DNA from: Terebella lapidaria
Taxonomy: Eukaryota > Annelida > Polychaeta > Terebellida > Terebellidae
NCBI GenBank assembly: GCA_949152475.1
Contig: OX424566.1
Span: 33,296,423-33,360,422 of the forward strand
Direction: 5' to 3'
DNA: 64,000 nt
Positions 1,459-58,500 of this stretch are shown here, one piece after another. A program made the translations under genes and the position numbers. How positions within the stretch are numbered: the stretch's first letter is position 1; every line of letters starts with the position of its first letter. Under the pieces are notes generated by a model, which made no database searches, was not told the origin of the DNA, and saw only the letters and a list, made by a program, of their open reading frames with translations.

Positions 1459-2758
1459 GTCGGGCATGTACGGGGGGTCCCTTTGCACCCTCCCCCATGA
1501 TCCTCCAAAACCAACTTTTTTCTCAAGGTTTTTTAATACTAATAAACTTTACATATGTCTCCGGTTGCGCATCCATTGCAAAAATTGGTTTTCGGGCCAT
1601 TTTTCAAAATGGCCGCCCCGCGAAATCTCGAATTTTGAGATCGCTTCACTTTAAGCTGCATAGGTCTACAAAATAAAATGTTTGTTACCTTTGGCTGCTC
1701 ATTGTAGGGACCTTATACATTGTACATGAGAAAACAGTGGTTAAATAAACATTTATAATATGAATATGTCCATAAATCCAAGATGGCCGCCAAATTTAGA
1801 TAATTTTTCACTAAAATGTCCATAACTTCGGACTGAGTCAACCTAGGATGTTCATTTTGGGGTCTATACCTAGGTTTTCATATACAGGGAATCCATTTAG
1901 ACCAAAATAAATACAATCAAGCTATTTCTTTTGATGCATGCATCCAAGATGGCCGCCAAATTTAGATAAGTTTTCACTAAAATGTCCATAACTTCGGACT
2001 GAGTCAACCTAGGATGTTCATTTTGGGGTCTATATCTAGGTTTTCATATACAGGGAATCCATTCAGACCAAAATAAATACAATCAAGCTATTTCTTTTGA
2101 TGCATGTGCACCTGCACACATGGTACACGCTACACATTCATTTAGATATCTCTCGAATATAGCCCCCTTTACACCCCTATGGACTCAATTGTGGATCTTG
2201 CTTGGATATTTCTGATAGAGACTTTTACTGATTTGCAATCCCAATAAATCCTTGAACAAATAGAGCTTGATTTGATTAGTTTTGTTAATTAACAGAAATC
2301 CAAGATGCCTGCTAAACACACCCCGAAAATTCAAGTTCGTAACTAATTGTGCTATAAAGATGTGTGATACTTACTTTCAAGGGTATTTTGGTATGTAGAT
2401 TCCACTTTTGGTGTTATTCTAGCTATATAATATCAATTTAAAATGATAACAGCATCTCATTGAGATGGGAAGCAAATAAAAACATATTGTTATTTGAGTT
2501 TATTCGTACACTTATGCATTACGCATTACTCACCAACATGCTTGGGATACTTTTTATATCACAAACAGAGAACAATAATGTAGAATATCTTCATTGGCTA
2601 TCTTAACACATGAACATGATGGAACATGGTATTATGATATATTGTAATGAGGTAATACTGCTATATTGGATGAATTGACATATTAGTTGATGATGTCTTC
2701 ACCATTGCCCTGCATTCTCTTGCAGTACAACAACGTTGTCTTGAGCTGTCCGACATCA
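1459..2758 (+). repeat. left arm of fold-back element
   Basis: A 1.3-kb arm that pairs with 2911-4200. It contains two tandem 165-bp units, an AATGGCCGCCCCGCG stretch near 1609, and a long AT-rich inner part. Confidence 0.85.
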
Positions 2759-2910
2759 CTTGCATTACAACTGTTCAGCCCCAGGAGAGTGGCAACCCGT
2801 ACACAAAGGTGTGTCTAGATCAATGAATGAGACTAGATCAATGAATGGGACTATTGTGGCAAAAGTGATGTAGAATTTTCCAGAACTGAGATAGAGGATG
2901 TTGAGTGGTA

Positions 2911-4200
2911 TGATGTCGGACAGCTCAAGACAACGTTGTTGTACTGCAAGAGAATGCAGGGCAATGGTGAAGACATCATCAACTAATATGTCAATTCATC
3001 CAATATAGCAGTACCAATATCATAGTACCATGTTCCATCATGTTCATGTGTTAAGATAGCCAATGAAGATATTCTACATTATTGTTCTCTGTTTGTGATA
3101 TAAAAAGTATCCCAAGCATGTTGGTGAGAAATGCGTAATGCATAAGTGTATGAATAAACTCAAATAACAATATGTTTTTATTTGCTCTCCATCTCAATGA
3201 GATGCTGTTATCATTTTAAATTGATATTATATAGCTAGAATAACACCAAAAGTGGAATCTACATACCAAAATACCCTTGAAAGTAAGTATCACACATCTT
3301 TATAGCACAATTAGTTACGAACTTGAATTTTCGGGGTCTGTTTAGCAGGCATCTTGGATTTCTGTTAATTAACAAAACTAATCAAATCAAGCTCTATTTG
3401 TTCAAGGATTTATTGGGATTGCAAATCAGTAAAAGTCTCTATCAGAAATATCCAAGCAAGATCCACAATTGAGTCCATAGGGGGTGTAAAGGGGGCTATA
3501 TTCGAGAGATATATAAATGAATGTGTAGCGTGTACCATGTGTGCAGGTGCACATGCATCAAAAGAAATAGCTTGATTGTATTTATTTTGGTCTGAATGGA
3601 TTCCCTGTATATGAAAACCTAGATATAGACCCCAAAATGAACATCCTGGTTGACTCAGTCCGAAGTTATGGACATTTTAGTGAAAACTTATCTAAATTTG
3701 GCGGCCATCTTGGATGCATGCATCAAAAGAAATAGCTTGATTGTATTTATTTTGGTCTAAATGGATTCCCTGTATATGAAAACCTAGGTATAGACCCCAA
3801 AATGAACATCCTAGGTTGACTCAGTCCGAAGTTATGGACATTTTAGTGAAAAATTATCTAACTTTGGCGGCCATCTTGGATTTATGGACATATTCATATT
3901 ATAAATGTTTATTTAACGACTGTTTTCTCATGTACAATGTATACGGTCCCTACAATGAGCAGCAAAAGGTAACAAACATTTTATTTTGTAGACCTATGCA
4001 GCTTAAAGTGAAGCGATCTCAAAATTCGAGATTTCGCGGGGCGGCCATTTTGAAAAATGGCCCGAAAACCAATTTTTGCAATGGATGTGCAACCGGAGAC
4101 ATATGTAATGTTTATTAGTATTAAAAAACCTTGAGAAAAAAGTTGGTTTTGGAGGATCATGGGGGGGGGGGTGCAAAGGGACCCCCCGTACATGCCCGAC
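2911..4200 (-). repeat. right arm of fold-back element
   Basis: The inverted counterpart of 1459-2758, 10 bp shorter. It keeps the two 165-bp units. An 11-base G run at 4161-4171 lies where the left arm has a much shorter C run. Confidence 0.85.
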
Positions 4201-11256: not shown

Positions 11257-11519
11257 CTCCAGATTATGTTGATATAGTTATTCATTTTAACCCCCCCCCC
11301 CCCTTCACTGTTTGGAGTTTGTCTTTTGCTTTCAACCCCTATTAAAAAGATTTTGATGATGACAGCAGAACACTTGGCATACATGAGAACAAAGCCCGAC
11401 TAATGTCCGAAGCCACACCGGCAAAACTAAGAGCATACATTGTGTACATATATACGGTGGCTGATATGTGACATCTAAATTTTTTTTTGCAGGACACCAA
11501 TTAAAAAAATAGCAAAATA

Positions 11520-11851
11520 TTCTATTCGTGAATAAACCTATTCTATTCTCGAATAAAACATTCTATTCACGAATAAAACGTTCTATTCGTGAATAAAACT
11601 ATTCTAATTGCGAATAAAACATTCTATTCACGAATAAAACGTTCTATTCGCGAATAAAACTATTCTATTCGCGAATAAAACATTCTATTCACGAATAAAA
11701 TATTCTATTCACGAATAAAACGTTCCATTCGTGAATAAAACTATTCTATTTGCGAATAAAACATTCTATTCACGAATAAAACCTTCTATTCGCGAATAAA
11801 ACGTTCTATTCGCGACTAAAACATTCTATTCACGAATAAAACATTCTATTC
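11520..11851 (+). repeat. minisatellite array, left arm
   Basis: About 16 units of a 20-bp motif of the form TTCTATTCGCGAATAAAACA, with variants in the middle CGCG/CACG/CGTG. It is complementary to the right array. Confidence 0.85.
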
Positions 11852-11940
11852 ATTTAATGGTCCCAGAATGGCGATGTGTCACTGTGATGTATAGAAGCTT
11901 TTGTTACTCATAGCAATTGTAACTTATCGAGTATTATTGG

Positions 11941-12525
11941 TGAATAGAACGTTTTATTCGTGAATAGAATGTTTTGTTCGCGAATAGAACGTATTATTCG
12001 TGAATAGAATGTATTATTCGCGAATAGAATGTTTTATTTGCAAATAGAATAGTTTTATTCACAAATAGAAGTTTTATTCGTGAATAGAATGTTTTATTCG
12101 CAAATAGAACGTTTTATTCGTCAATAAAATGTTTCATTCGCGAATAGAATGTTTTATTCGCAAATAGAATAGTATTATTCGCGAAAAGAACGTTTTATTC
12201 GTGGATAGAATGTTTTATTCGCGAATAGAACGTTTTTTTCGTGAATAGAATGTTTTATTCGCGAAACGAATGTTTTATTCGCAAATAGAATAGTTTTATT
12301 CGCGAATAGAACGTTTTATTCGTGAATAGAATGTTTTATTCGCGAATAGAACGTTTTATTCGTGAATAGAATGTTTTATTCGCAAATAGAATAGTTTTAT
12401 TCGCGAATAGAATAGTTTTATTCGTGAATAGAATGTTTTATTCGCAAATAGAACGTTTTATTCGTGAATAGAATGTTTTATTCACGAATAGAATAGTTCT
12501 ATTCAAGAATAGAATATTTTGCTAT
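11941..12525 (-). repeat. minisatellite array, right arm
   Basis: About 29 units of the complement of the left-arm motif. It is longer than the left array, so the arms have changed length independently after the inversion arose. Confidence 0.85.
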
Positions 12526-12587
12526 TTTTTTAAATTGGTGTCCTGCAAAAAAAATTTAGATGTCACATATCAGCCACCGTACATATA

Positions 12588-17300: not shown

Positions 17301-20300
17301 AACAAGATTACCCGCTACGCCAACCGATAAATTACGTCTTTGGCCGCATGGGGCGCCTCACCCAGAGAACTGAGGCCTTAAGTATTGGCTTAAAGGATTA
17401 TTGGAGATTGCTTACCGTACACAACCAGGCAGGCGGTCTAGATTTGCCATCCTTAGGGCCCTTGCTTATGTTAACAACCAATGTTGAAAGCACGACCGTC
17501 ATCACAATGATGACCATGTTAATACAATAATAAACTCCTGAAAATATAGAGCGTATAAGTTACGTTATTACATTGCCATCATAGTAAAGACATGATCTAA
17601 TGTAATCTAGAAATCAATATTTGATATGTGTATATCTCAAGGATTGAGCTATCTATGAATGGAGGCTGTATATTCGATAAAACAAAATAAATTCACTGAA
17701 AAAAATCCAACGGTTAAGGCGATCGATAACTTTTCCCCGCTTCCGTTGTTTATTCTTGATTAATGGGAACCAGCCAATAGCCTAGGTGCATGATTTAATG
17801 AGATATAGAATATTTGGTATGAGTATATCGCAAGGATTGAGCTATCTATGGATGAAGGCTGTACATTTGATAAAAAAAAAAATTAACTGAAAAAAATCCA
17901 ACGGTTAAGGTGATCGATAACTTTTCCCCGCTTCCGTTGTTTATTTTTGATTAATGGGAACCAATGAATAGCTTTGGTGGCTCATTTGAAAATGCCAGTT
18001 TCAAAACTAATGCAAATCACGTGGCTAATAGTGTTCTTTCTTGCCGTTCTCTCTAAATGAGACACTTGATCTACGCCATTAACTAATGATTACACCGCGA
18101 AGCTAAACTTGACCCGAGTCGTGAGATGATATTTGAGTTGATTAATTTTGCAGTGAATTTATCGGTGAATTAATGACAAAGCTAGCTCGCTTACCTAGGA
18201 GCGGGATGGTATTAGCGGCTGGTGGGGATGACTCCACCAGAATCAACAGCAGGAACATGAAAGTGCTGAACGTACTCATCGCTATTGGTGGTCAATATGC
18301 AATAAAAAGTACATAAATGGTTCAATATTGTTAAGATGATTGAATCCATATCATCGGCACATAGTTTTTTCATTTTGTTTCATTCGTTCAATCGTAATAA
18401 TGCTACTATGATTAATAAACAACCCGATGTTGACCTCCATTTGTAAAATTGCAGTTGGCAATGCGAACATTCGGGATGGTATAATGATGTCGTGATTAAT
18501 TTCGTCAAGGCAGTACAAATCTCAAGATATACAATACAGTCGTCTCCTAATGTGGTATAGAACTACAAATTATCCCAATTAATCATGTATGGGTGCGAAA
18601 TATTATCTTAATGTTACATGAAATGTTATACGTGCAATATTCGAAAACAATTATAGCTGCGAGCGATCGAGTGCCGAGCTATATAAAAACACATCTACAT
18701 ATAGCAGGTACATATCCGATTGATAGGTTATTTATGTGGTTTTATATCAATAGACATATCACATACCTAATGCGGTCCTGTCAGGTCTCTCTGGAGGTAA
18801 CCAGAACACGACCAAAGTCAGGAAGGCGAGGAAGACACATGGCAACGTCAGAATGTACGTGGAGAACACGAGCTTCCTTGACAACACAAGCTCAAAGGTC
18901 AATACCGAGAAATTCGGGTACTCGGTTTCTGAGGGTAGAATCTGCCTCTTGGCGGTTACGTTCAGTATGTCCCAGGCGCTTGACTCCCTGTTCTCACTTT
19001 CAAAAGTGGACAGATCCAGGCCCCCGGGAAATGACATCACAATGTCCAATTCTCTACTGGGATGCGTCCACGAACCGAAGGCGAGGTTGCACTTCTGTAA
19101 GTCGAACGGGAAGTTACGTACGTTGACTGAGCATGCGCTGTGGTAGATGCAGTGAGGGAACCAGTTAACAAGGCCACTGTACGTCACCACGGCTAGCGTC
19201 GAACGAGCGGGTACGTCGATGTCCGCCCTGGGAGAAAGAAAAATAGTAACGAACTCTCTCAAATACAACATATTCTCCCGAACAAGTAGCGTGAAATGTA
19301 CCCAAGCCACAAATTGTCCTTTCCATTCATTTATCCCTATAAACTTCTGTTAAGACCCATGAAACAAGATCCCTTCCCCCACCGATTATTATATAGCACA
19401 AGACACGGTCGTATGCAATTCAAATTGAGACAGTTTCATGTTTCCCGCCAGCAGATACAACCTAGCATGAATAATACCAAAGAGTAAGTCAGGGAACTAA
19501 CGTGTTGAAGAGCATTATGTCTGGTGTCCAGATGTCAAAGGGGTCGACCGTTAGCTGAGCAAGGCCGTCATACTCTTCCGGATCCCAGGTCAGGTATTCG
19601 TCAGTCCACTCCTGGGAGATATAAGATATAGTATGAGGGAAGCATTCGAGGAGTGGCATCGCTTCTAAAGACTTTCTTGCATGCATTAAATGAGTAGGAG
19701 CACCGAACAGAGGTGTTTTTTGTGCGATGTTCGCCTATGCCTTTGGCCTATATTCCATGTTGTATCTTCTTTCAGAGCAATTACTAGTAGATCAGTGTGC
19801 ACCCACAAAGGTGCTGAGTTGTTGTCCCAACTGATGCGCTCGAAATTGGAAGCATAGGGGGCCATGAACCAAACCCGCATTACTACAAATTTCAACACAA
19901 GATGGAATGAACCAATCATTGCATATCGTTCTCTGTAAACGACATTCCAGTGCTGGAAATCACCAGTTCAATGTGCACCATATTTCTACAGAATACTCTG
20001 ATGATGCTGAAGGATGGAAATGGCTTTTCAAATTCTGAGAATTATAAAATTTCTCCCAATCCGCACATTTTTCTTCTTCGAATGCCATGTACATGAACCG
20101 TACTCGCCACATCTTGCGATGAAATTTGGAAGATACATTACGTCACTTCCGAGTAAATCACCTCGGTTGTTTATTACGTATAGGAGAACCGTCATTATCA
20201 TTTGAAAAACGAAGAACGTATTGCTCACATATCTGGTCCACATGCTCATGGTCAGCATTTTTTGTTTCTCGTTCAGGTCCATCTGTTTGAGGCCCAGACC

Positions 20301-22009
20301 AAAGTTGACTTGGACGGCCATGCTGGAGTTTCTGACGGGACGTCCGGCTCGCCCCATCCACTCGTAGTGGGCCATCAGTCGTCGTATCAACCGCTTCTCC
20401 GCCGAGATCGGACCACGCGCGTGACTCCTGCTGAACAGATCTACGTGTACAATTATCTGGGAACATGCAAGAACTCATCACGGTTTAGGCTAACGATTAC
20501 ATGTAGCTATGACAGTGACTGCTATTGACATGGGGAATTCACATCAATGCATCGTAGTATGCAGAGAAGATTACTTTAGCGACCGACTATCAGGCATGAA
20601 AAAAAGTTGGGCATAAAACACTGTCCTGTCTCCATTTACACCGTGTTGCTTTTAAGCGACTGTCACAGTGAAAAATAATCCACGAGGAATGGAGAAGACC
20701 ATACTTCAAGTTTTCTTTAAACATTTGTCGGCTCTGGGAGTACTCAGTCGTGGCCGGGTTTCCTATTCATATATCGAGAAGAACAACAGGGAAATACGAA
20801 AAATGGGACAGAAAAATAGTTACAGGCTCTTCTAGAATCCACGGGGAGCCATTGTTATCGTCTAGATTGAACGAGGCACACTTCCGTTTGCACGACATGA
20901 TACAGGCACATTCCCATACCTATTCATACCTACCTACCTACCCCTAACTACATGGCCGCTAGAGCCAGTTTGTTATAGTTAAATTTGTTGATGTTATGAT
21001 ACTCTTCCAATGATACTTGTTTAATGTTACTCCTTGGGACAAACGCACAAAATTGAAATTCGTCAGAGGCGCTTATAAAATTGGAAATTATACGATACCA
21101 TGTTTGGTCTTTTTCACTTTGAATTTTTAGGTGTATATCATAAATCGCTGGAAATTTGTTATACAATGGCACTATTGTTTCTATTGGACAGGGTTTTATA
21201 TTTCAATTAGTGGTGTTTTGTCACATATCCACCATTGTATCAAGTTCTCTATTATCATTAGCAAATATACATTATTTTCTAATATACGCGTTTCACGTCA
21301 TTCACTGATGGCCGGACGTAGCGGGTTAACATTTTTCTCCAAGTCCCATGTAACAAGATATCATACATATTTTGAAACGTCGATAAGTGTAGTCGGAAGG
21401 ACGGTCTCAGCTACCGTACCAAAGCCCTCCAATTAAACTGATTACATAGGAGCTCTGGATAAGTGTTTATTCAGAGATCCCATTACATCACGCCCCTAAC
21501 AATAGCATGGTGCAAACCTTGACACGGTGAAATGTCGACACCATATATTCCTTGGAACTTCATTACTTTATTTGTACATACTAGGTGAATTGTATCAAAT
21601 TACAGTGATTTGAAATGTCACAATGATCCAATGAATCAAATATTTCATGACATTCAATAGAAGACGAATATCCCTCTTAGTGCAAGACACTTTTTCATTT
21701 TCATCCTAACAGTAATACGGGAATACATAGTCGATTCTTCAGATATACGTAGAGGAAATGATTGAATAGTCTTTGTATACCATGCGAGGTTCAATCAAAA
21801 GTGTAACAACATAATGCTATGATCACACACATACTTGTTCTGATTACAAAAGCGAATACCAAAGATTGAATACCTGTGGGTTTTCACAAGACAAATCAGA
21901 CTAACACTCACCCATTACGCGCCACTCTGCTCCCGGTGCCGCCCGGGATGTGCCAAAAACAGTATATTAGCAGCAGCAACACACAGCTGGTTCCCTTCAG
22001 CGAGACCAT
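14379..22009 (-). CDS. nicotinic acetylcholine receptor-like (Cys-loop) subunit, gene A, 7 exons
   Basis: A ligand-gated ion channel subunit of the nicotinic receptor family, acting in the plasma membrane as part of a pentamer. Coding exons, in transcript order, are 22009-21912, 20430-20229, 19611-19502, 19227-18767, 18281-18195, 17537-17416 and 14861-14379. All introns are GT-AG and frames join exactly (1563 nt, 520 codons plus stop; phases 2,0,2,1,1,0). Residues 1-30 are a hydrophobic signal peptide. The 110-bp third exon is the classical nAChR size and ends in WTPDIMLFN (loop A). The Cys loop is Cys169-Cys183 with 13 residues between. M1 is about 256-279, M2 288-306, M3 321-343 and M4 490-514. 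Loop C reads PSETEYPNF and has no vicinal Cys pair, so this is a non-alpha type subunit. M2 is atypical, with Asp at -1', Arg at 0', Ser at 9' and Phe at 13'. The start is the only ATG that gives a signal peptide spliced in the right phase. The ligand is not predictable. Confidence 0.93.
15883..15957. repeat. short inverted repeat in gene A intron 6
   Basis: CTGTTGGTCAAAATGGTGG pairs with CCACCATTTTGACCAATAG with a spacer of about 36 bp. It may be the remnant of a small transposon or a structured intron element. Confidence 0.6.
16035..16672 (+). mobile_element. 5'-truncated LINE: RT C-terminus and 3' UTR
   Basis: The frame 16050-16349 reads NAPRYLTSS, RHNTRSGPM, SSFRYTSVTAWNELPSDIR and FKSKVKSFLF. 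This is the usual C-terminus of CR1/Jockey-type reverse transcriptases. About 320 bp of AT-rich 3' UTR follows, ending in AATAAATTCAAACAATCAAT repeats. It is sense-opposite to receptor gene A and sits in its last intron, so it should not be read as a gene. The start is a truncation point, not a translation start. Confidence 0.85.
17610..17992 (+). repeat. 191-bp tandem duplication in gene A intron 5
   Basis: Two copies (about 17610-17800 and 17801-17992) share CAAGGATTGAGCTATCTATG, AAAAATCCAACGGTTAAGG, and GATAACTTTTCCCCGCTTCC followed by GTTGTTTATT. CCAACGG recurs at 17707 and 17898, giving the 191-bp period. Divergence is low for intronic sequence. Confidence 0.8.
20425..20437 (-). other. 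tandem NAGNAG splice acceptor, gene A exon 2
   Basis: The acceptor reads TTCAGCAG on the minus strand. Using the first AG starts exon 2 at 20430 and using the second starts it at 20427. Both keep the frame and differ by one residue just after the signal peptide region. Gene B has a single AG here. Confidence 0.6.
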
Positions 22010-34407: not shown

Positions 34408-34452
34408 ATCTGAGCTAGTCTCGGATTATCGACCCCGATTTGACCGGCAGAA

Positions 34453-37011
34453 ATGGCGATGGCTCCGCCGCTCGACCCTACGGATGACGAGGTAACGTTC
34501 AATCCGAACCCGGCCTTCCGACCTTCCGGCCCCCGCTCAGTTGCCATGAGCGACACAGTCCCGTTGTCACAGGAGCGACAACCGACTGGCCTGTTCGACT
34601 CTTTCGGTGACCAATCGTCGCTGACTTCGTCCTCGCCAGCTGAAGACCGCATCGGAGCGTACCTCGACGAAGACCCGCTCGCGCCCTTACACACAGTGAG
34701 TGACATTTTAAGTGCACACGCTAGGGCATACTCGGCCACGCCGGCCAGAACGACCCAGAAATTACGAAGTAACTTTACCGGCAGAGACTATACACGCTCA
34801 CGTCAAAGAGCGAGTGTATGTGATCGTATCGTACATTCTACAATGAACATTCGGCCTGTAACCATGGATACATCAATGGTTACACACCCGCCAAGCGACC
34901 CTCGGATACGGCAGTGGGTCTGTGACAATGATAATGTTACGGAACTGGTACCGCCGAGCGCTTATTCGGCAACCCGACCCCGGGCGCCATCAATGACGCC
35001 AATGCAGTACGACCCAGTACCAGCGGTGTACTCTCGTCTACCGACCGAGCCGACCGTGGTAGAGTACATTCGACCCAGCCAGGAGAGAGCGACTACAGGG
35101 AGCATTCCAGTGACGACTGCTGTCCAGATCGCGACATCTCCAAGTCCGCAACGACCCAGCGACGCGACAACAGAATATCGCGCCTCCACACGACCAGCGC
35201 GACCTCGGCAACCACCATCTACGTCAAGTCGCCGACCCTGCGACCCCGACACGCCGACTTCCGACACACGCGCTCCCGCGCCGACCACGCACCGACCGTC
35301 GCCGACTACCGGAGAACAACCGCGCTTCGATCCGTCACAAGATCAAGTTGTGTCTGCTCCGGCAGAAAGTGTTGTGCCAATGATCGGACCTCCGATCTCA
35401 CAATCAGTCGGAAACACCAACGGATATGGTGTACCGCCAGTCGGATACCCTGGCGCAACAAGCGGTGTTCCAAATGGAGTAGCTGTCGGATACTATTCAC
35501 CGCATGTCGGCTACGCGAACCCACCGCCCGGATATGGTGGCGTTCCCAGCGTGATAGCTGACACCGGCTATCATGGTGCACAACCCGGATTAGTGTACCA
35601 TGGTGTATGCCCAGATGGATCGGTATACCGATATCCACCACCGGCTGTATTCCCACCCTCAGTCGGGATACCATGGGTGACGCCTCCATACAGTCAACCG
35701 GCCCCTGCTGCACAAGCACCACACGACCCCAGTCACACGACGGCACCACCCGCCGCATCGCTCGCCGTCTCCGCGACGACAGCACCGACCGCCCCCGCTA
35801 ACGCGACCCCGATCGGCCCAGATACGACGGCTCCGGCGACTTCGGCTGTTCCGACTCCGACGGCCACTGCAGCGACTACATCAGTTGCGGTGAGTGTTGA
35901 TACGCCCACGCCACAGAGACTCACGTCTGAGCCCCAAACGTTGGCTACGGCTAAAATGGCTCAATGGCGTGCGACCTTCAAGGAGGGCAATCTCACTCAA
36001 TACGTTCGGAGTTTCGAACAGTTCACTGCGGCTTTCACTTACTCCGACCTCAACAAGACGACGACCTTCCGGAGCACGCTACGCGGCCGCGCTGAAGCGC
36101 TAGCTCTGAATATCCCGGTCGCGACTCCCTGGGGAGAGTTCCGTCGCCAACTCCTAGAGGGCTGGGAACCCGAGCCCTGTCGACAGTCCAAACGGGACGA
36201 TTTCCCGTTCCTCAAGCGGGAACGAAAAGAGGACGCGGAACACTACATGGAGCGACTCCAAGCCCTGGCGGAGCAAGTGTTCGATGACGTTACGCCAACG
36301 TCGCGGCAACGAACTGTAATTGCACAATTCGTGAATGGCCAACCCGACCCCATTGCCGATAAACTGTGTGCCCTCACTTTTAACAGTTGCAGTGAGGCAC
36401 TTACGGCCGTTCTCAAGGTAGAGAGTCGTCAACAGAGGACAGCCAGAGATCGACATCGAGGCACACGACGTGCTGACATTTCCGCAAGCGGATACGCGGA
36501 AGACGACCCTGTCAATGAAGAACTGTCCTGTGCCATGGGACAAGTCACTCAGGGGGAAACACTAACCCCAGAGCAAATTGCGGCCTACTACGACCCCGCG
36601 GACAGTGACGCTACCGGCCTACAAGGTTGCGACGAACACTCAGTGCCGACCAGCTCACGCGAGTGGGTGGCTGAAGCTTTCCAGTGCGTCCTTAGTGACG
36701 AGAATGGACTATGCGAGGAAACGGCTATCTTTTCTGTCCTGCGAACAACGGCCCCGATGAAAGGTGATCGACCCCCGCAACCCGGACGACCCATGGTTTG
36801 CTTCTTCTGCAAGAAACCCGGCCATCGCTGGATGCGGTGCTTTCGGCTTAAGGATGTGCTAGTACGTAACGGCATGAAACCGCTAGCATTTCGGCCTAAT
36901 GGTCCCGGTACTGACAGAAGGACAGCTCAAGTGTTTTCAGTACCTAACCAAACCGGTAACCAAACTAAACCGGCCCCACCAACACCTCCGACCCCGTCGT
37001 CAAACCAGTAG
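34453..37011 (+). CDS. gag-like frame of the Ty3/Gypsy element
   Basis: A structural protein of an LTR retrotransposon fossil. The N-terminal half is a long low-complexity region rich in Pro, Thr, Ser and Ala. A capsid-like helical region follows (about residues 498-660, with FRSTLRGRAEALALN). Near the C-terminus there is one zinc knuckle, CFFCKKPGHRWMRC (C-X2-C-X4-H-X4-C), typical of nucleocapsid. The start lies 45 bp after the primer-binding site. It is an element gene, not a host gene. Confidence 0.85.
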   Translation: MAMAPPLDPTDDEVTFNPNPAFRPSGPRSVAMSDTVPLSQERQPTGLFDSFGDQSSLTSSSPAEDRIGAYLDEDPLAPLHTVSDILSAHARAYSATPARTTQKLRSNFTGRDYTRSRQRASVCDRIVHSTMNIRPVTMDTSMVTHPPSDPRIRQWVCDNDNVTELVPPSAYSATRPRAPSMTPMQYDPVPAVYSRLPTEPTVVEYIRPSQERATTGSIPVTTAVQIATSPSPQRPSDATTEYRASTRPARPRQPPSTSSRRPCDPDTPTSDTRAPAPTTHRPSPTTGEQPRFDPSQDQVVSAPAESVVPMIGPPISQSVGNTNGYGVPPVGYPGATSGVPNGVAVGYYSPHVGYANPPPGYGGVPSVIADTGYHGAQPGLVYHGVCPDGSVYRYPPPAVFPPSVGIPWVTPPYSQPAPAAQAPHDPSHTTAPPAASLAVSATTAPTAPANATPIGPDTTAPATSAVPTPTATAATTSVAVSVDTPTPQRLTSEPQTLATAKMAQWRATFKEGNLTQYVRSFEQFTAAFTYSDLNKTTTFRSTLRGRAEALALNIPVATPWGEFRRQLLEGWEPEPCRQSKRDDFPFLKRERKEDAEHYMERLQALAEQVFDDVTPTSRQRTVIAQFVNGQPDPIADKLCALTFNSCSEALTAVLKVESRQQRTARDRHRGTRRADISASGYAEDDPVNEELSCAMGQVTQGETLTPEQIAAYYDPADSDATGLQGCDEHSVPTSSREWVAEAFQCVLSDENGLCEETAIFSVLRTTAPMKGDRPPQPGRPMVCFFCKKPGHRWMRCFRLKDVLVRNGMKPLAFRPNGPGTDRRTAQVFSVPNQTGNQTKPAPPTPPTPSSNQ

Positions 37012-37082
37012 GGGAAGGTGCTGAGGAGCAAGGACCTTCCAGACAACAGGACAACGTTCCCCGCTCCACTCCTGCGGTTGCC

Positions 37083-39179
37083 ATGACGACCAAACCCGTG
37101 CAACTGCCCGTCACGACCCCACAGCCGGCCCAGCCCACACCTCAGCTCTTTGAAGGGGTGTGCACCAAGTGTCAGTCTCCGACCCCAGCGCCGGCTCCTT
37201 TTCATGAAGGGGTGTCCGCACCACATCCGCAACGACCTTCATGCAGAAACCGTCGTCCTGAAGGGATGTTGCCCCCAACCGACCCAGAAACAAGTTCCGG
37301 GAAACCTCTAGTTCGTCGGATAACCGTTGTTCCGGCCAAGACAAGGGCAGACCTCCTAGACAGTGATTCAATAATGTCTCCGGTCTTGCGGTTGCCCCGC
37401 CTTATTTCGGCACGCCAAGTTGTTCGAGTCCGTGCTTTGGACACCACACTTGATGGACAAAAGTGGTTATCGGACTATACGACCCAGGACATTGTCGCGG
37501 CACAGCAAGCCGACCCCAGTGTCGGGAGAGTGCGACAATGGGTACTAGCTGGCACAAAACCAGACTCGAGAGAAGTTGCACGCCACGGGGAGGAGGTAAA
37601 GACACTTGTTTCTCGCTGGAACCTCCTGGTGCTACAAGACAGAGTACTGGTACGAAACACAAGACCCGACCCCGCTGGACGACGTGTGGTACAGACCGTG
37701 CTCCCTGTAGCACTCAGGACCCAAGTTCTGCACCAACTGCACGACCTGAAGATTGTCGGACATCTCGGCATACAGCGAACTATCGAGAGGGTCAGGCGCC
37801 GATTCTACTGGCCCGGCTTGGCACTGGATGTTGCCCGCTGGTGTGCCCGCTGCCCGCAATGTGTGACCCGCAAGGGTAAGCCGACCCCGAAAAGATCGCC
37901 CCTGACACAGTTGCCGACAGGAGCGCCGTTCGACCGAATAGCGATGGACATCCTCGACACCCACAAAGTCACGGGAAGAGGCCATCGGTACATACTTGTC
38001 GTGTCGGACTACTTCTCGAAGTACACGGACGCCTTTCCGCTACGGCGACATACGGCCAAAAATGTTGCCGACATCCTGGTGAACAGATGGATAGTTTACC
38101 ACGGTGTTCCCAAGGTGATCCATAGCGATCAAGGTACCGAGTTCGAGTCCTCTCTGTTCCGCAATGTCGTGCGTCTGCTAGGCGCTAAGAAGATTCGTAC
38201 GACCCCATATCGACCCCAAAGTGACGGCCAAGTTGAGCGTTTCAATAGGACATTGCTCAACATGCTGAGTGCGTTCGTCAGCGATCGTGCAAACGATTGG
38301 GACTTGCACTTGCCATATGTGTTAATGGCCTATCGAACCTCAGTACACTCGTCCACGGGATGCACCCCGCATCTGATGGTGTATGGACATGAGTGTAACT
38401 TGCCAGTCGACCTCATGTTTCCGACCTACGACCCTGAGCCTCTACCTCCGTGTGGTCCGGAGTATGTGGAGTATTTGCGGCAAGCCATCAGGACGGCCCA
38501 CGGTTTCGCCCAAGACCATCTCGAGAAAGCGGCAATTCGGCAAAAGATGGGTTATGACGCCCACGCGAAACCACGACCCCAGTTTCAACCAGGCGAACTG
38601 GTCCGGTATTATTATCTGCCACTCACGCAGAATAATAAGTTCGCTCGGCCCTGGACTGGTCCCTGGAGGATCATCGACCGTGTAACCGAGGTTGATTACC
38701 GAATCGCCCTGGTTTCCAACCCTCGGAACACTCGTGTTGTTCATCTGGATGTGCTCAAGCCATACGAAGGTGACAACCAAGCGGCCCACATCTACTCCGA
38801 CCCTGTACGACCCACGTCGTCGTCAAGCAAGTCCGACCCAGAACAGTCACCCGACCCCATGGGACTTCTCAAGGAGTTCTATTACCCTTGGGAGGTAACA
38901 GTCCAAGATCGGCATACCGATTCAGCCCAAACAGCTGAGTCTGACTCGCCAACGACCCAAAATCGTCAATCGCGACCTCCGACTTCATCCGGCCCAAGTC
39001 GACATCGGCAACGGAAAAGATCACGCAGATCAAGTTCCGACACACCAAAACCGGCACGCAAGACACGCAGGCAAAAGCCTGTGATATCATCCGACCCCGA
39101 GACAAGCGAGGCTACGCCCCCGCCTGCACGACCAAGTCGACCCAAACGCAACGCACGCAGACCGGCCCGCTACAGATAA
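37083..39179 (+). CDS. integrase-like frame of the Ty3/Gypsy element
   Basis: Contains an HHCC zinc-binding region (HDLKIVGHLG to CARCPQC) followed by an rve/DDE core (AMDIL, IHSDQGTEFE, QSDGQVERFN). A GPY/F-like module (GPWRIIDRV to VVHLDVLKPYEG) and a basic Ser/Arg-rich tail follow. The domain order is that of Ty3/Gypsy integrases. No chromodomain was recognised. Treat it as part of the LTR fossil. Confidence 0.88.
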   Translation: MTTKPVQLPVTTPQPAQPTPQLFEGVCTKCQSPTPAPAPFHEGVSAPHPQRPSCRNRRPEGMLPPTDPETSSGKPLVRRITVVPAKTRADLLDSDSIMSPVLRLPRLISARQVVRVRALDTTLDGQKWLSDYTTQDIVAAQQADPSVGRVRQWVLAGTKPDSREVARHGEEVKTLVSRWNLLVLQDRVLVRNTRPDPAGRRVVQTVLPVALRTQVLHQLHDLKIVGHLGIQRTIERVRRRFYWPGLALDVARWCARCPQCVTRKGKPTPKRSPLTQLPTGAPFDRIAMDILDTHKVTGRGHRYILVVSDYFSKYTDAFPLRRHTAKNVADILVNRWIVYHGVPKVIHSDQGTEFESSLFRNVVRLLGAKKIRTTPYRPQSDGQVERFNRTLLNMLSAFVSDRANDWDLHLPYVLMAYRTSVHSSTGCTPHLMVYGHECNLPVDLMFPTYDPEPLPPCGPEYVEYLRQAIRTAHGFAQDHLEKAAIRQKMGYDAHAKPRPQFQPGELVRYYYLPLTQNNKFARPWTGPWRIIDRVTEVDYRIALVSNPRNTRVVHLDVLKPYEGDNQAAHIYSDPVRPTSSSSKSDPEQSPDPMGLLKEFYYPWEVTVQDRHTDSAQTAESDSPTTQNRQSRPPTSSGPSRHRQRKRSRRSSSDTPKPARKTRRQKPVISSDPETSEATPPPARPSRPKRNARRPARYR

Positions 39180-55504: not shown

Positions 55505-58500
55505 TCAGTCAGACACTACATACTCCGCTGGTCTCGGGAAGAACATCACCAGAGATGTACCAATCACAACAATGTACAGCCAGAAGAAAAACCTATCGAC
55601 CACCACCGCTATGGCCCGCCACTCCCAAAAGACATCTTCGTAGGAAGAGTCGGACGAACCCCGCACTGCAACAGTCTCTTCCACGTGCTGGATCGAACGT
55701 CGAATTCCTTCCATTTCTCTCTGTAGGCTCGCGAGAGTCGAACTACACGACACGCATGCACCGCCGTTCGGGCCGTGACCCAAGTCGCTGCGCGGGCGAA
55801 GTGTGTGCGTCGCCATGTGATCTCCTGCGTTTTTGTTCTGCCACGCGAGAAAACGCGTCTGATCTTCTGATTGTATGTTGTCACGTGACCTCTCAGCCGA
55901 GATGCGACAAATCTCTCGGTAGATGGAAGACATACAGAAAACCCGGGCAACACACTTCAGGGTCACCTGAAATCAAATTGGTACATTAATTTAGCCGAGT
56001 TCAAGCAAGTATCATTGGGAAGTAATTCGCAGCTCACAGTGCAGGTCAAAAAGGGTAAAAACTTCCGGTGACTCGGTACAAATGAACGGCATGGTGCTAA
56101 ACTACTGTGTTCGTGTTTTAGACGTGATTTATTACCGCTCTCAATCGACTAATTGGAATTATAGCATCTACAAAATTGCGTAGGCCTATGCATTTGGTCT
56201 AAATTGTTGAGTTCATAGTCGGAGGTATGTGACCTACCAATTATTCGCCAACATATGAAATCAGGTTTAGCGCAATCATCTGCGAAATATTCGTGATGAT
56301 ATATATATGTACATGTATACATATAGCTAGCAAACCGTTGACAGCCACGCTGGGGGCCTTGACTTTCCGTCCTTGGGGCCTCTACTCAGATTTATCACCA
56401 GGGTCGACAGCACAATCGTCATGACGATTATAACCATGTTGATGCAGTAATATACACCTAAAAGCAATAAGCAAAACACATGTATCAGCAGAAAAGGGTC
56501 TGTGTTTAGCGCCTAACCTTCCGAAAGTAAGCTCTGTCGCTGCCAATTTTCTTAAAACTGCAGTTTCTTCGAAAAATGCATCTATTGCTGATGCAAATTA
56601 GATAATCCTGAATGAAATTTTCTCGGATCGATTTAATGCTACCAGGTTCATGAATTGTGAATGGAAATACTTTGATTGGAAAGTGTTGGAGATGCCCGCA
56701 CCTAGCAAGGGTATTGTGTTTGCGGCCGATGGCGATGAATCCACGAGGATTAGCAGCAAGAACATGAACGTACTGAAAGTACTCATAGCTGTGGAAGAAG
56801 ATAGCAGCAATCAGCTTACAAAGTAAACATCTAGAGGATAATCAATTATTAAAACTTTCCCTTGAAATCGAAGTAGTTTGGATTAAACAGTTTTATTTCA
56901 TACGCAACTATGAATTACGATTAGAATGCAATAAGAATGAGATTCTGCACACGTAATTGTAGCTTTTCTATAACGCTTTTGCATACACAACGCTTTATCT
57001 TTCCAAAAGGTCAAATAACGCAGTGACATGTATAGCTGGATGTAGGTGCATATGGCTATTCCTATATACATGACTATTGGGAGCTGTTTTAGATACTTAC
57101 CGAGTGCTGTTCTGTCAGGTCTCTCTGGGGGCAGCCAGAACACCACAAGTGTCAGAAACGCCAGGAAAATACAAGGAAGGGTTAAAATATACGTAGAAAA
57201 CACGAGCTTCCGCGACAGGTGAAGTTCAAATGTCAACACAGCGTAGTTCGGGTATTCTTCTTCAGAAGGCAGCACTTGTCTCTCGGCCGTTACGTTGACT
57301 ACCTCCCACGCACTTGACTCTCGATTTTCACTTTCGAAAGTGGAGAGATCGAGACCGCCAGGGAAAGACATCTGGATGTCCAGCTCTTTGCTAGGGTGGG
57401 TCCAGGAACCGAAAGCAAGGTTGCACTGCTGGCGATCGAAGGGGAAATTCCGGATGTCTACTGAGCATGCGCTGTGATAGATGGAATGCGGGAACCAATG
57501 AATGACGCCGTTGTTACTGACGACAGCTAGAGTGGCTCTTGAAGGGACATCTATGTCAGCTCTGTAACAAAAAACATTTAATTTGTTCATTCTTAGGCGA
57601 ACTTTACTGGTAATCATTGGTAATAGATTCGAAATATTTTTTTGCTCTCTCAATTCATACGCATGAAACATGAGGAATAACCAAATTCGTGTCTGCGACG
57701 AAAAATGTAGAAATGTGATACTCTGTCGTATATTTCAGCGAGCTACATTGATTATGATTTGCTATAATCAACTCTGCTATTTCAGTTCATTCGTTTGGAG
57801 CATAGAAAGAACAAAAATATGTCTGCGACCAAAAAAAAAAAAGAAGTGTAATACTTTATTGGATATTAAACCGAACGTTATTGGTAATTTTTAACAATAA
57901 ATTCAAAATTGGTTTGTTCTCTGTCCGTAAAAAGTCCCTACTTTTATATTTGCGGCAAAACAAAAACATTCAGATGTAATATTTCATTGGATACTGAGGA
58001 ACGCACGTGTTGAACAGCATGATATCAGGGGTCCAGATCTGGGACGGGTCGATGGTAAGTTGTAGAAGTCCCTCGTAGTCCTCAGGGTCCCACAGTAGAT
58101 ACTCATCAGTCCACGTCTGGAAGATATTACATCAGGCATTCATTCTACATATCGACACGGATATTCTGACTCCCCTAGCAGAAGTGATTCTGAGTTTTCA
58201 ATTAAGGCAGATAAAATGTATGTATCAATTTATTGCAACCAATGGACGAAGATCATAAAGAACTCACGAGTAGCATTTTTTTTTGTAATATTTTGCCAAA
58301 CATAGCTTTTCTTACTGTACGGAAATAAAATGCCTTGCTTGATTTTTTTGCCATATTTGAAGTGTTAAAAGACATGTGTCAATTGGTCACTGTCTGAAGG
58401 TCATATTTGTTTGATAACTGAAGTTTTTTTTCTTCCACCAGTACATACGTATCTGGTCCACATGCTCAGCTTTAGCATCTTATGTTTCTCGTCCAGATCC

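Follow-up and report, generated by a model that had tools for sequence, protein, structure and literature searches.

Inverted arrays of a short, consensus-palindromic unit form the arms of a putative foldback transposon with IS3EU-type ends in Terebella lapidaria

What kind of element carries two long tandem arrays as its arms, one the reverse complement of the other, and do these arrays serve its movement? The question is raised by a locus within a stretch of 64,000 nucleotides of the Terebella lapidaria genome (contig OX424566.1, positions 33,296,423 to 33,360,422; here called the window). Positions 11453-12581 of the window hold a complete element, TACGG...CCGTA, between two copies of CATATA, which are read from the sequence as its left and right 6-bp target-site duplications (TSDs; 11447-11452 and 12582-12587). 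By sequence comparison, the left terminal inverted repeat (TIR) occupies 61 bp on the plus strand (11453-11513) and opens with the tip TACGGTGGCTGATATG; the right TIR, also 61 bp (12521-12581, minus strand), is 96.8% identical to it. The left array (11514-11852, 339 bp, plus strand; TRF and unit parse) consists of 16.7 copies of a 20/21-bp unit, AAAACATTCTATTCGCGAAT, and the right array (11934-12520, 587 bp, minus strand; TRF and inverted pairs) of 29.1 copies of that unit's reverse complement. Between them lies a unique spacer, or middle domain, of 81 bp (11853-11933, plus strand), which sets the polarity of the element and is common to one subfamily. TRF gave a period of 20 in both arms, and the consensus unit of the second arm, TTATTCGCGAATAGAATGTT, is the reverse complement of the first in a different register. 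The initial annotation had located the terminal repeats, the CATATA duplication and the two opposed arrays as found here, and its arm lengths of about 332 and 585 bp are close to those from TRF; its terminal repeat of 75 bp, however, shrinks to 61 bp once the array is set apart.

The arms can pair over most of their length. In a list of the 25 longest inverted pairs, those joining arm to arm were 80-98% complementary, the longest covering 195 nt at 91%. The predicted single-strand fold of the window copy reached -422 kcal/mol, compared with -120.2 +/- 7.5 for 20 dinucleotide shuffles, and 319 of the 339 left-arm bases were paired with the right arm in this computed structure. None of the open reading frames (ORFs) of at least 110 aa in the window overlaps the element. 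Foldback elements are described as DNA transposons with long TIRs made of tandem repeats (PMC4079207, PMC3169594). The arrangement had been called an unusual design for a MITE, but long, inverted and variable tandem arrays are what defines foldbacks in these accounts (PMC4079207, PMC3169594). The element has tandem-repeat TIRs, an arm length that varies between copies and, for the window copy, a computed fold-back; it also shares with MITEs its short length, TIRs, TSD, many copies and freedom from coding sequence. Judged by its sequence, it is best classified as a non-autonomous foldback-type DNA transposon of MITE size.

Other features of the window were recorded. A near-perfect inverted repeat of 2.7 kb lies at 1488-4169, with main pieces 98-100% complementary, a centre of about 150 nt and an internal 166-bp tandem duplication; its inner pair (2520-3137) has the ends TACGCATTACTCACCAACAT and is flanked on both sides by ATGCAT. 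Exons of two ligand-gated-channel genes (PF02931/PF02932) were found on the minus strand at 18759-20474 and 56898-57734, where two of five Pfam matches exceed the cut-offs and the others are weaker; the nearer gene is some 6 kb away from the element. A retrotransposon-type ORF with H2C2 and rve integrase domains occupies 36969-39179, and an 855-aa ORF just upstream of it (34444-37011) had no Pfam match.

Whether the arrays belong to the transposon was examined by seeking terminal repeats without them, an observation that would speak against a transposon with integral arrays. Thirty ends in 27 places (L009-L038), two of them the window copy's own, were selected with the initial 74 bp of the element as query, made up of 61 bp of terminal repeat and 13 bp of array. 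At least three units were found in the next 145 bp at 30/30 ends, and at least four at 28/30. Among these 30 ends selected with the 74-bp query, the entire 61-bp repeat was never seen without an array. The arrays move as part of the element. The outer tip is more widely shared than the array. A genome scan that required five specified differences further in, and catches only about one quarter of such tips (0.75^5), recovered three places where the tip has an unrelated continuation. One locus, L077, contains a 668-bp element (positions 201-868) with the TSD ACCAAC and a TACGG tip. Its ends agree with the window family at 19 positions in the outer 20 bp but not further in, and the family array is missing; the outermost 20 bp therefore exist without it. 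L077 was rejected as a copy of the window family and is treated as a different element with a common outer tip.

The family is large. In the 761.6-Mb genome, the 16-bp tip with at most one mismatch occurs at 832 places (410 + 422 by strand), whereas the reversed pattern has 7; there are 211 exact tips (78 after A/T and 133 after C/G), with none in the reversed control. A search with the terminal sequence gave 233 first-look candidates, of which 40 were scored, and a search with the spacer gave 59, of which all 40 scored were matches. The copy survey merged 68 of 78 loci, the other 10 overlapping them, into 58 stretches holding 37 complete copies; because loci were chosen for similarity to the window element, these 37 are no random sample. 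The window's spacer is present in 25 of the 37. Length ranges from 393 to 1734 bp in 34 copies, and the remaining three (1939-7438 bp) hold nested insertions. A perfect 6-bp TSD was found in 23/37 and one agreeing at five of six bases in 3/37. The other 11 copies did not fit 6 bp, and include four segmental duplicates on C4 and four copies matching perfectly over 5 or 7 bp. Exact duplications of other lengths were rare (3 bp in 1/37, 5 bp in 3/37, 7 bp in 1/37), and none of 4, 8, 9 or 10 bp was seen in the 37. In the 23 perfect TSDs, counting both strands, the G+C fraction is 0.59 at positions 1/6 and 0.09 at positions 3/4, with a value of 0.41 for the window outside the element. The targets of the family tend to be 6-bp sites with G/C ends and an A/T centre.

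One copy, at C4:30565345, records the insertion itself. It sits in a repeated reading frame, and joining its flanks with a single GTTACT gives an open frame, which we take to resemble the end of a LINE reverse transcriptase. This empty-site join has two genomic matches at 97% over 186/186 bases with no change in length, and further matches at 86% (185 bases) and 84% (165 bases, with small deletions). The filled site matches in two pieces, 1-108 and 102-186, and the overlap is the TSD. Together, the defined ends, the TSDs and this empty site demonstrate insertion of the cut-and-paste type. The same copy holds a nested foreign insertion. Elsewhere, family members lie in or beside each other's terminal repeats (C12:36716457, C16:10843919-10845728 and L015), and the TSD of one member, GCCACC, falls within terminal-repeat sequence. 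At least three copies (L027, L069 and L070) have an unrelated repeat, starting AGGTTACCG, inserted in their right terminal repeat at one and the same T-run, and the outer TSDs of L069 and L070 are intact. Either the repeat favours this target, or the combined element has moved as a composite.

Two accounts of the arrays compete. The one we favour, with moderate confidence, is that the element is a non-autonomous foldback moved by cut and paste, with an IS3EU-like transposase acting in trans and the arrays serving as putative binding sites. The main competitor, which we rate at somewhat under an even chance, accepts the foldback but takes the arrays to be functionless, slippage-prone simple DNA that grew within long inverted repeats and hitchhikes with them. 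The array found at every end picked by terminal sequence argues against functionless arrays. So does the spacing of units, which in the unit parse of this family is mostly 20/21 bp.

The variation among units favours the competitor. The unit parse of the 37 copies gave 1202 clearly oriented units, and 1006 remained after six copies were dropped (four segmental duplicates and two of the three with nested insertions); 996 of these agree with the consensus at no fewer than 13 of 20 positions and were used for the palindrome counts. Within the CGCG core of these 996 units, 773 of 846 changes are C>T or G>A. Across 30 copies, 824 of 3904 core positions were substituted, compared with 324 of 12688 at the 13 other positions; unit positions 4-6, where the 20/21-bp register and a further CG/CA variant lie, stand outside this comparison. 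Most unit variation is CpG decay, the mark of deamination, and germline methylation is therefore likely. The surroundings of the element are not strongly depleted, since the CpG observed/expected ratio of the window outside it is 0.92.

The same decay bears on symmetry. It had been stated that each unit contains ATTCGCGAAT; this holds for the consensus, but only 336 of 996 single units (31 copies) are perfect 10-bp palindromes, because CGCG often reads CACG, CGTG or TGCG. Nor are these in excess, as shuffled unit halves gave 355 +/- 12 (p 0.955), a result that lends no support to selection on symmetry and also sits well with functionless arrays. Of the double changes in the core, C1T+G4A was seen 20 times, above the 11.0 expected, and G2A+C3T 52 times, below the 65.1 expected. 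Active maintenance of the palindrome was considered for this family and is unsupported by the shuffled halves. Palindromy is a feature of the consensus and is decaying, without compensating changes to keep it.

Arm length is similarly loose, as functionless arrays would lead one to expect. In 22 of the 25 spacer-bearing copies (two with nested insertions and one segmental duplicate were left out), arms of 5-50 and 4-44 units were counted, with a longer right arm in 12 copies and a longer left arm in 10. Left and right counts correlate (rho 0.60, p 0.003, uncorrected for relatedness), which may reflect common descent. A natural experiment on arm change is provided by C4, where four copies sit in tandem segmental duplicates. 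No difference separates copies 2 and 3. The flanks of copy 4 agree at 198/200 and 200/200 positions, and within its element there are 15 mismatches, one 2-bp difference and, confined to the left arm, a gain of 39 bp or about two units. Copy 1 has in common only the right flank; it shows 70 mismatches to copy 2, and its right arm differs by 40 and 158 bp. The two members of a pair on C8 do not differ in length, and 14 mismatches and two 1-bp gaps separate them. After insertion, arms can change by approximately whole units, one arm at a time. The earlier view that the arms had expanded separately is borne out by the 39-bp gain in one arm between C4 duplicates, but is tempered by the correlated unit counts. 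Units would be gained and lost by replication slippage or unequal exchange, perhaps aided by hairpins.

The arms remain complementary because both are built of one unit that has diverged little outside its CpG sites; active upkeep of within-unit palindromy is not the cause. Homogenisation of the arms by gene conversion also found no clear support, as the two arms of an element resemble each other scarcely more than arms from different elements do (3.19 differences per unit compared with 3.22, p 0.013, 30 elements), and at the 13 non-CpG positions the same 30 elements showed no likeness beyond that to other elements (p 0.97).

A second family weighs on the other side. L015 carries a piece of a different inverted array, and a search with this piece gave 1374 first-look candidates, of which 40 were scored. 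Ten loci were cut out, L079 being the starting place and the other nine (L080-L088) being read. All nine start TACGGAGC; eight end CCGTA and one CCGTG. A 6-bp TSD was found in 9/9 (eight by script and L084 by eye), with a G+C fraction of 0.78 at the ends and 0.17-0.22 inside. The arms are again inverted arrays, here of the unit ATcGCG-TTCCCT-CGCgAT at a spacing of 21/22 bp, with 10-13 units on the left, 8-15 on the right and a short unique spacer between. The two families have in common the TACGG tip, the TSD length, the target bias and the overall plan; unit and spacer are unrelated. The second family is apparently the more numerous. Tips of this family without the usual continuation were found at two places, by a pattern that passes only about one quarter of them. 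In 204 units, one stem pair of the unit reads C-G 80 times, T-A 65, C-A 57 and A-G twice; covariation was considered here and discounted, the stem pairs being those of a few inherited unit types. L077 may add another case, having 13 matches to AATAACGTTATT at up to three mismatches, compared with a mean of 0.88 and a maximum of 5 in 500 mononucleotide shuffles. These include two sets of three matches spaced 18-22 bp apart, and one perfect 22-bp palindrome. As one copy with a motif picked by eye, L077 is a lead towards a possible third palindromic type.

Functionless arrays do not readily account for two families with unrelated units on the same inverted-array plan, palindromic and close to two helical turns per unit, or for the 21/22-bp spacing of the second; the third palindromic motif of L077 speaks in the same direction. 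A role in binding is favoured by the near two-turn spacing and by its recurrence in two families, perhaps also in L077. In the account we prefer, the arrays would be repeated secondary binding sites for the transposase or a partner protein, by analogy with Galileo. The protein would read a symmetric, CGCG-centred unit, about two helical turns long, and the array sites might compensate for a short terminal site. A strict constraint on dimer sites is disfavoured, since the palindrome is not maintained. A more specific version, which we regard as rather unlikely, is that an IS3EU-like lineage has arrays of short palindromes as its functional ends, each palindrome being a putative dimer site and the arrays a docking track. 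The plan would then have been kept, or have re-arisen, with unrelated units: the TTCGCGAA core, ATCGCG-TTCCCT-CGCGAT and perhaps AATAACGTTATT in L077. Our estimate of this version rose very slightly because L077 shows a third palindromic motif.

The superfamily is approached through the ends. Complete IS3EU families are described as always having TA..TA termini and usually 6-bp TSDs, and GingerRoot, written jointly as IS3EU/GingerRoot, as having 6-bp TSDs and mostly TA..TA termini (PMC10045372). Two oyster satellite DNAs are also listed as IS3EU-like (PMC8268682). Both IS3EU features are present here, in the termini TACGG...CCGTA and in the 6-bp TSDs of 23/37 copies of the window family and 9/9 of the second. 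As far as termini can tell, the element carries IS3EU-type ends, short of proven membership, and TA..TA ends with 6-bp duplications match IS3EU rather than Mutator. Mobilisation would most likely be in trans, by an IS3EU-like (IS3/IS481-type DDE) transposase. The assignment rests on ends and TSD, since the search for a transposase found none. In three pairs of exact tips, 7.4, 2.9 and 1.9 kb apart (L069-L071), no obvious transposase was seen, the first being checked by its ORF list and the others by eye; other repeats lie inside. These three were inspected out of the pairs formed by the tips listed, which also include pairs at 15.8 kb (C1) and 25 kb (C7). At the three tips with unrelated continuation, none of the three longest ORFs shown per 3.2-kb stretch was transposase-like. 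In profile searches with IS481 and IS3, 67 matches were scored from 5964 candidates and 75 from 5153, respectively; six loci among the 142 listed were considered as transposases and rejected, all being retroelement-type integrases by eye.

The transposase missing from the tip pairs, the tips with unrelated continuation and the profile loci opened leaves some room for another or undescribed group with 6-bp TSDs, such as GingerRoot or Dada, in place of IS3EU. Dada has TSDs of 6-7 bp. The combination of TA..TA and 6 bp fits both IS3EU and GingerRoot (PMC10045372), and we consider another group possible though doubtful.

It had also been suggested that the DNA could give rise to long double-stranded RNA or be a fragile site. 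We consider it improbable that host or element uses the arms as such a device. The strong computed fold (-422 kcal/mol, about -120 in shuffles) would suit such a use, and at L018, L021 and L036 one end and a broken array lie within 1.5 kb; any old transposon is expected to leave broken copies, however. A classical Mutator-type foldback, like most described foldbacks, would have the same architecture as Tm1 and Tetris, but is very improbable given a 6-bp TSD in 23/37 copies, the Mutator length of 8-10 bp in 0/37, and 6 bp again in all nine second-family copies read.

The account of a foldback with IS3EU-type ends can be set beside known systems. Foldbacks are mostly placed in Mutator, with exceptions, and those of Drosophila and sea urchin are cited in the Tetris paper (PMC4079207). 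Tetris of Drosophila virilis resembles the present element in its tandem-array TIRs with outer and middle domains, and in being apparently non-autonomous, with no transposase found (PMC4079207). It differs in its unit of about 220 bp, compared with about 20 bp and a palindromic core here, in its TSD of 8-10 bp rather than 6 bp, and in having three structurally complete copies, where 37 were found here (PMC4079207). Tm1 of root-knot nematodes similarly has composite TIRs, a variable number of short motifs (about 14 bp) and MITE-like copies; unlike the present element, it has TSDs of 8-10, mostly 9 bp, and is described as a Mutator/Foldback family with a putative transposase (PMC3169594). IS3EU shares the TA..TA termini and the 6-bp TSD, whereas no transposase was found here (PMC10045372). 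Judged by titles and the starts of abstracts, none of the open-licence papers listed in our searches describes a foldback with IS3EU ends. The foldback plan on TA..TA ends with a 6-bp TSD, shared by two or more families of this genome, suggests that this architecture evolved in a superfamily other than Mutator. The closest parallel for the arrays is Galileo, which is foldback-like with long, internally repetitive TIRs and differs in its P-superfamily transposase (PMC3688188). In Galileo, the tandem repeats of the TIRs hold extra sites for THAP, that is for the transposase, where the present arrays offer candidate sites (PMC3688188); if these units are indeed binding sites, they would help to explain why foldback arms exist.
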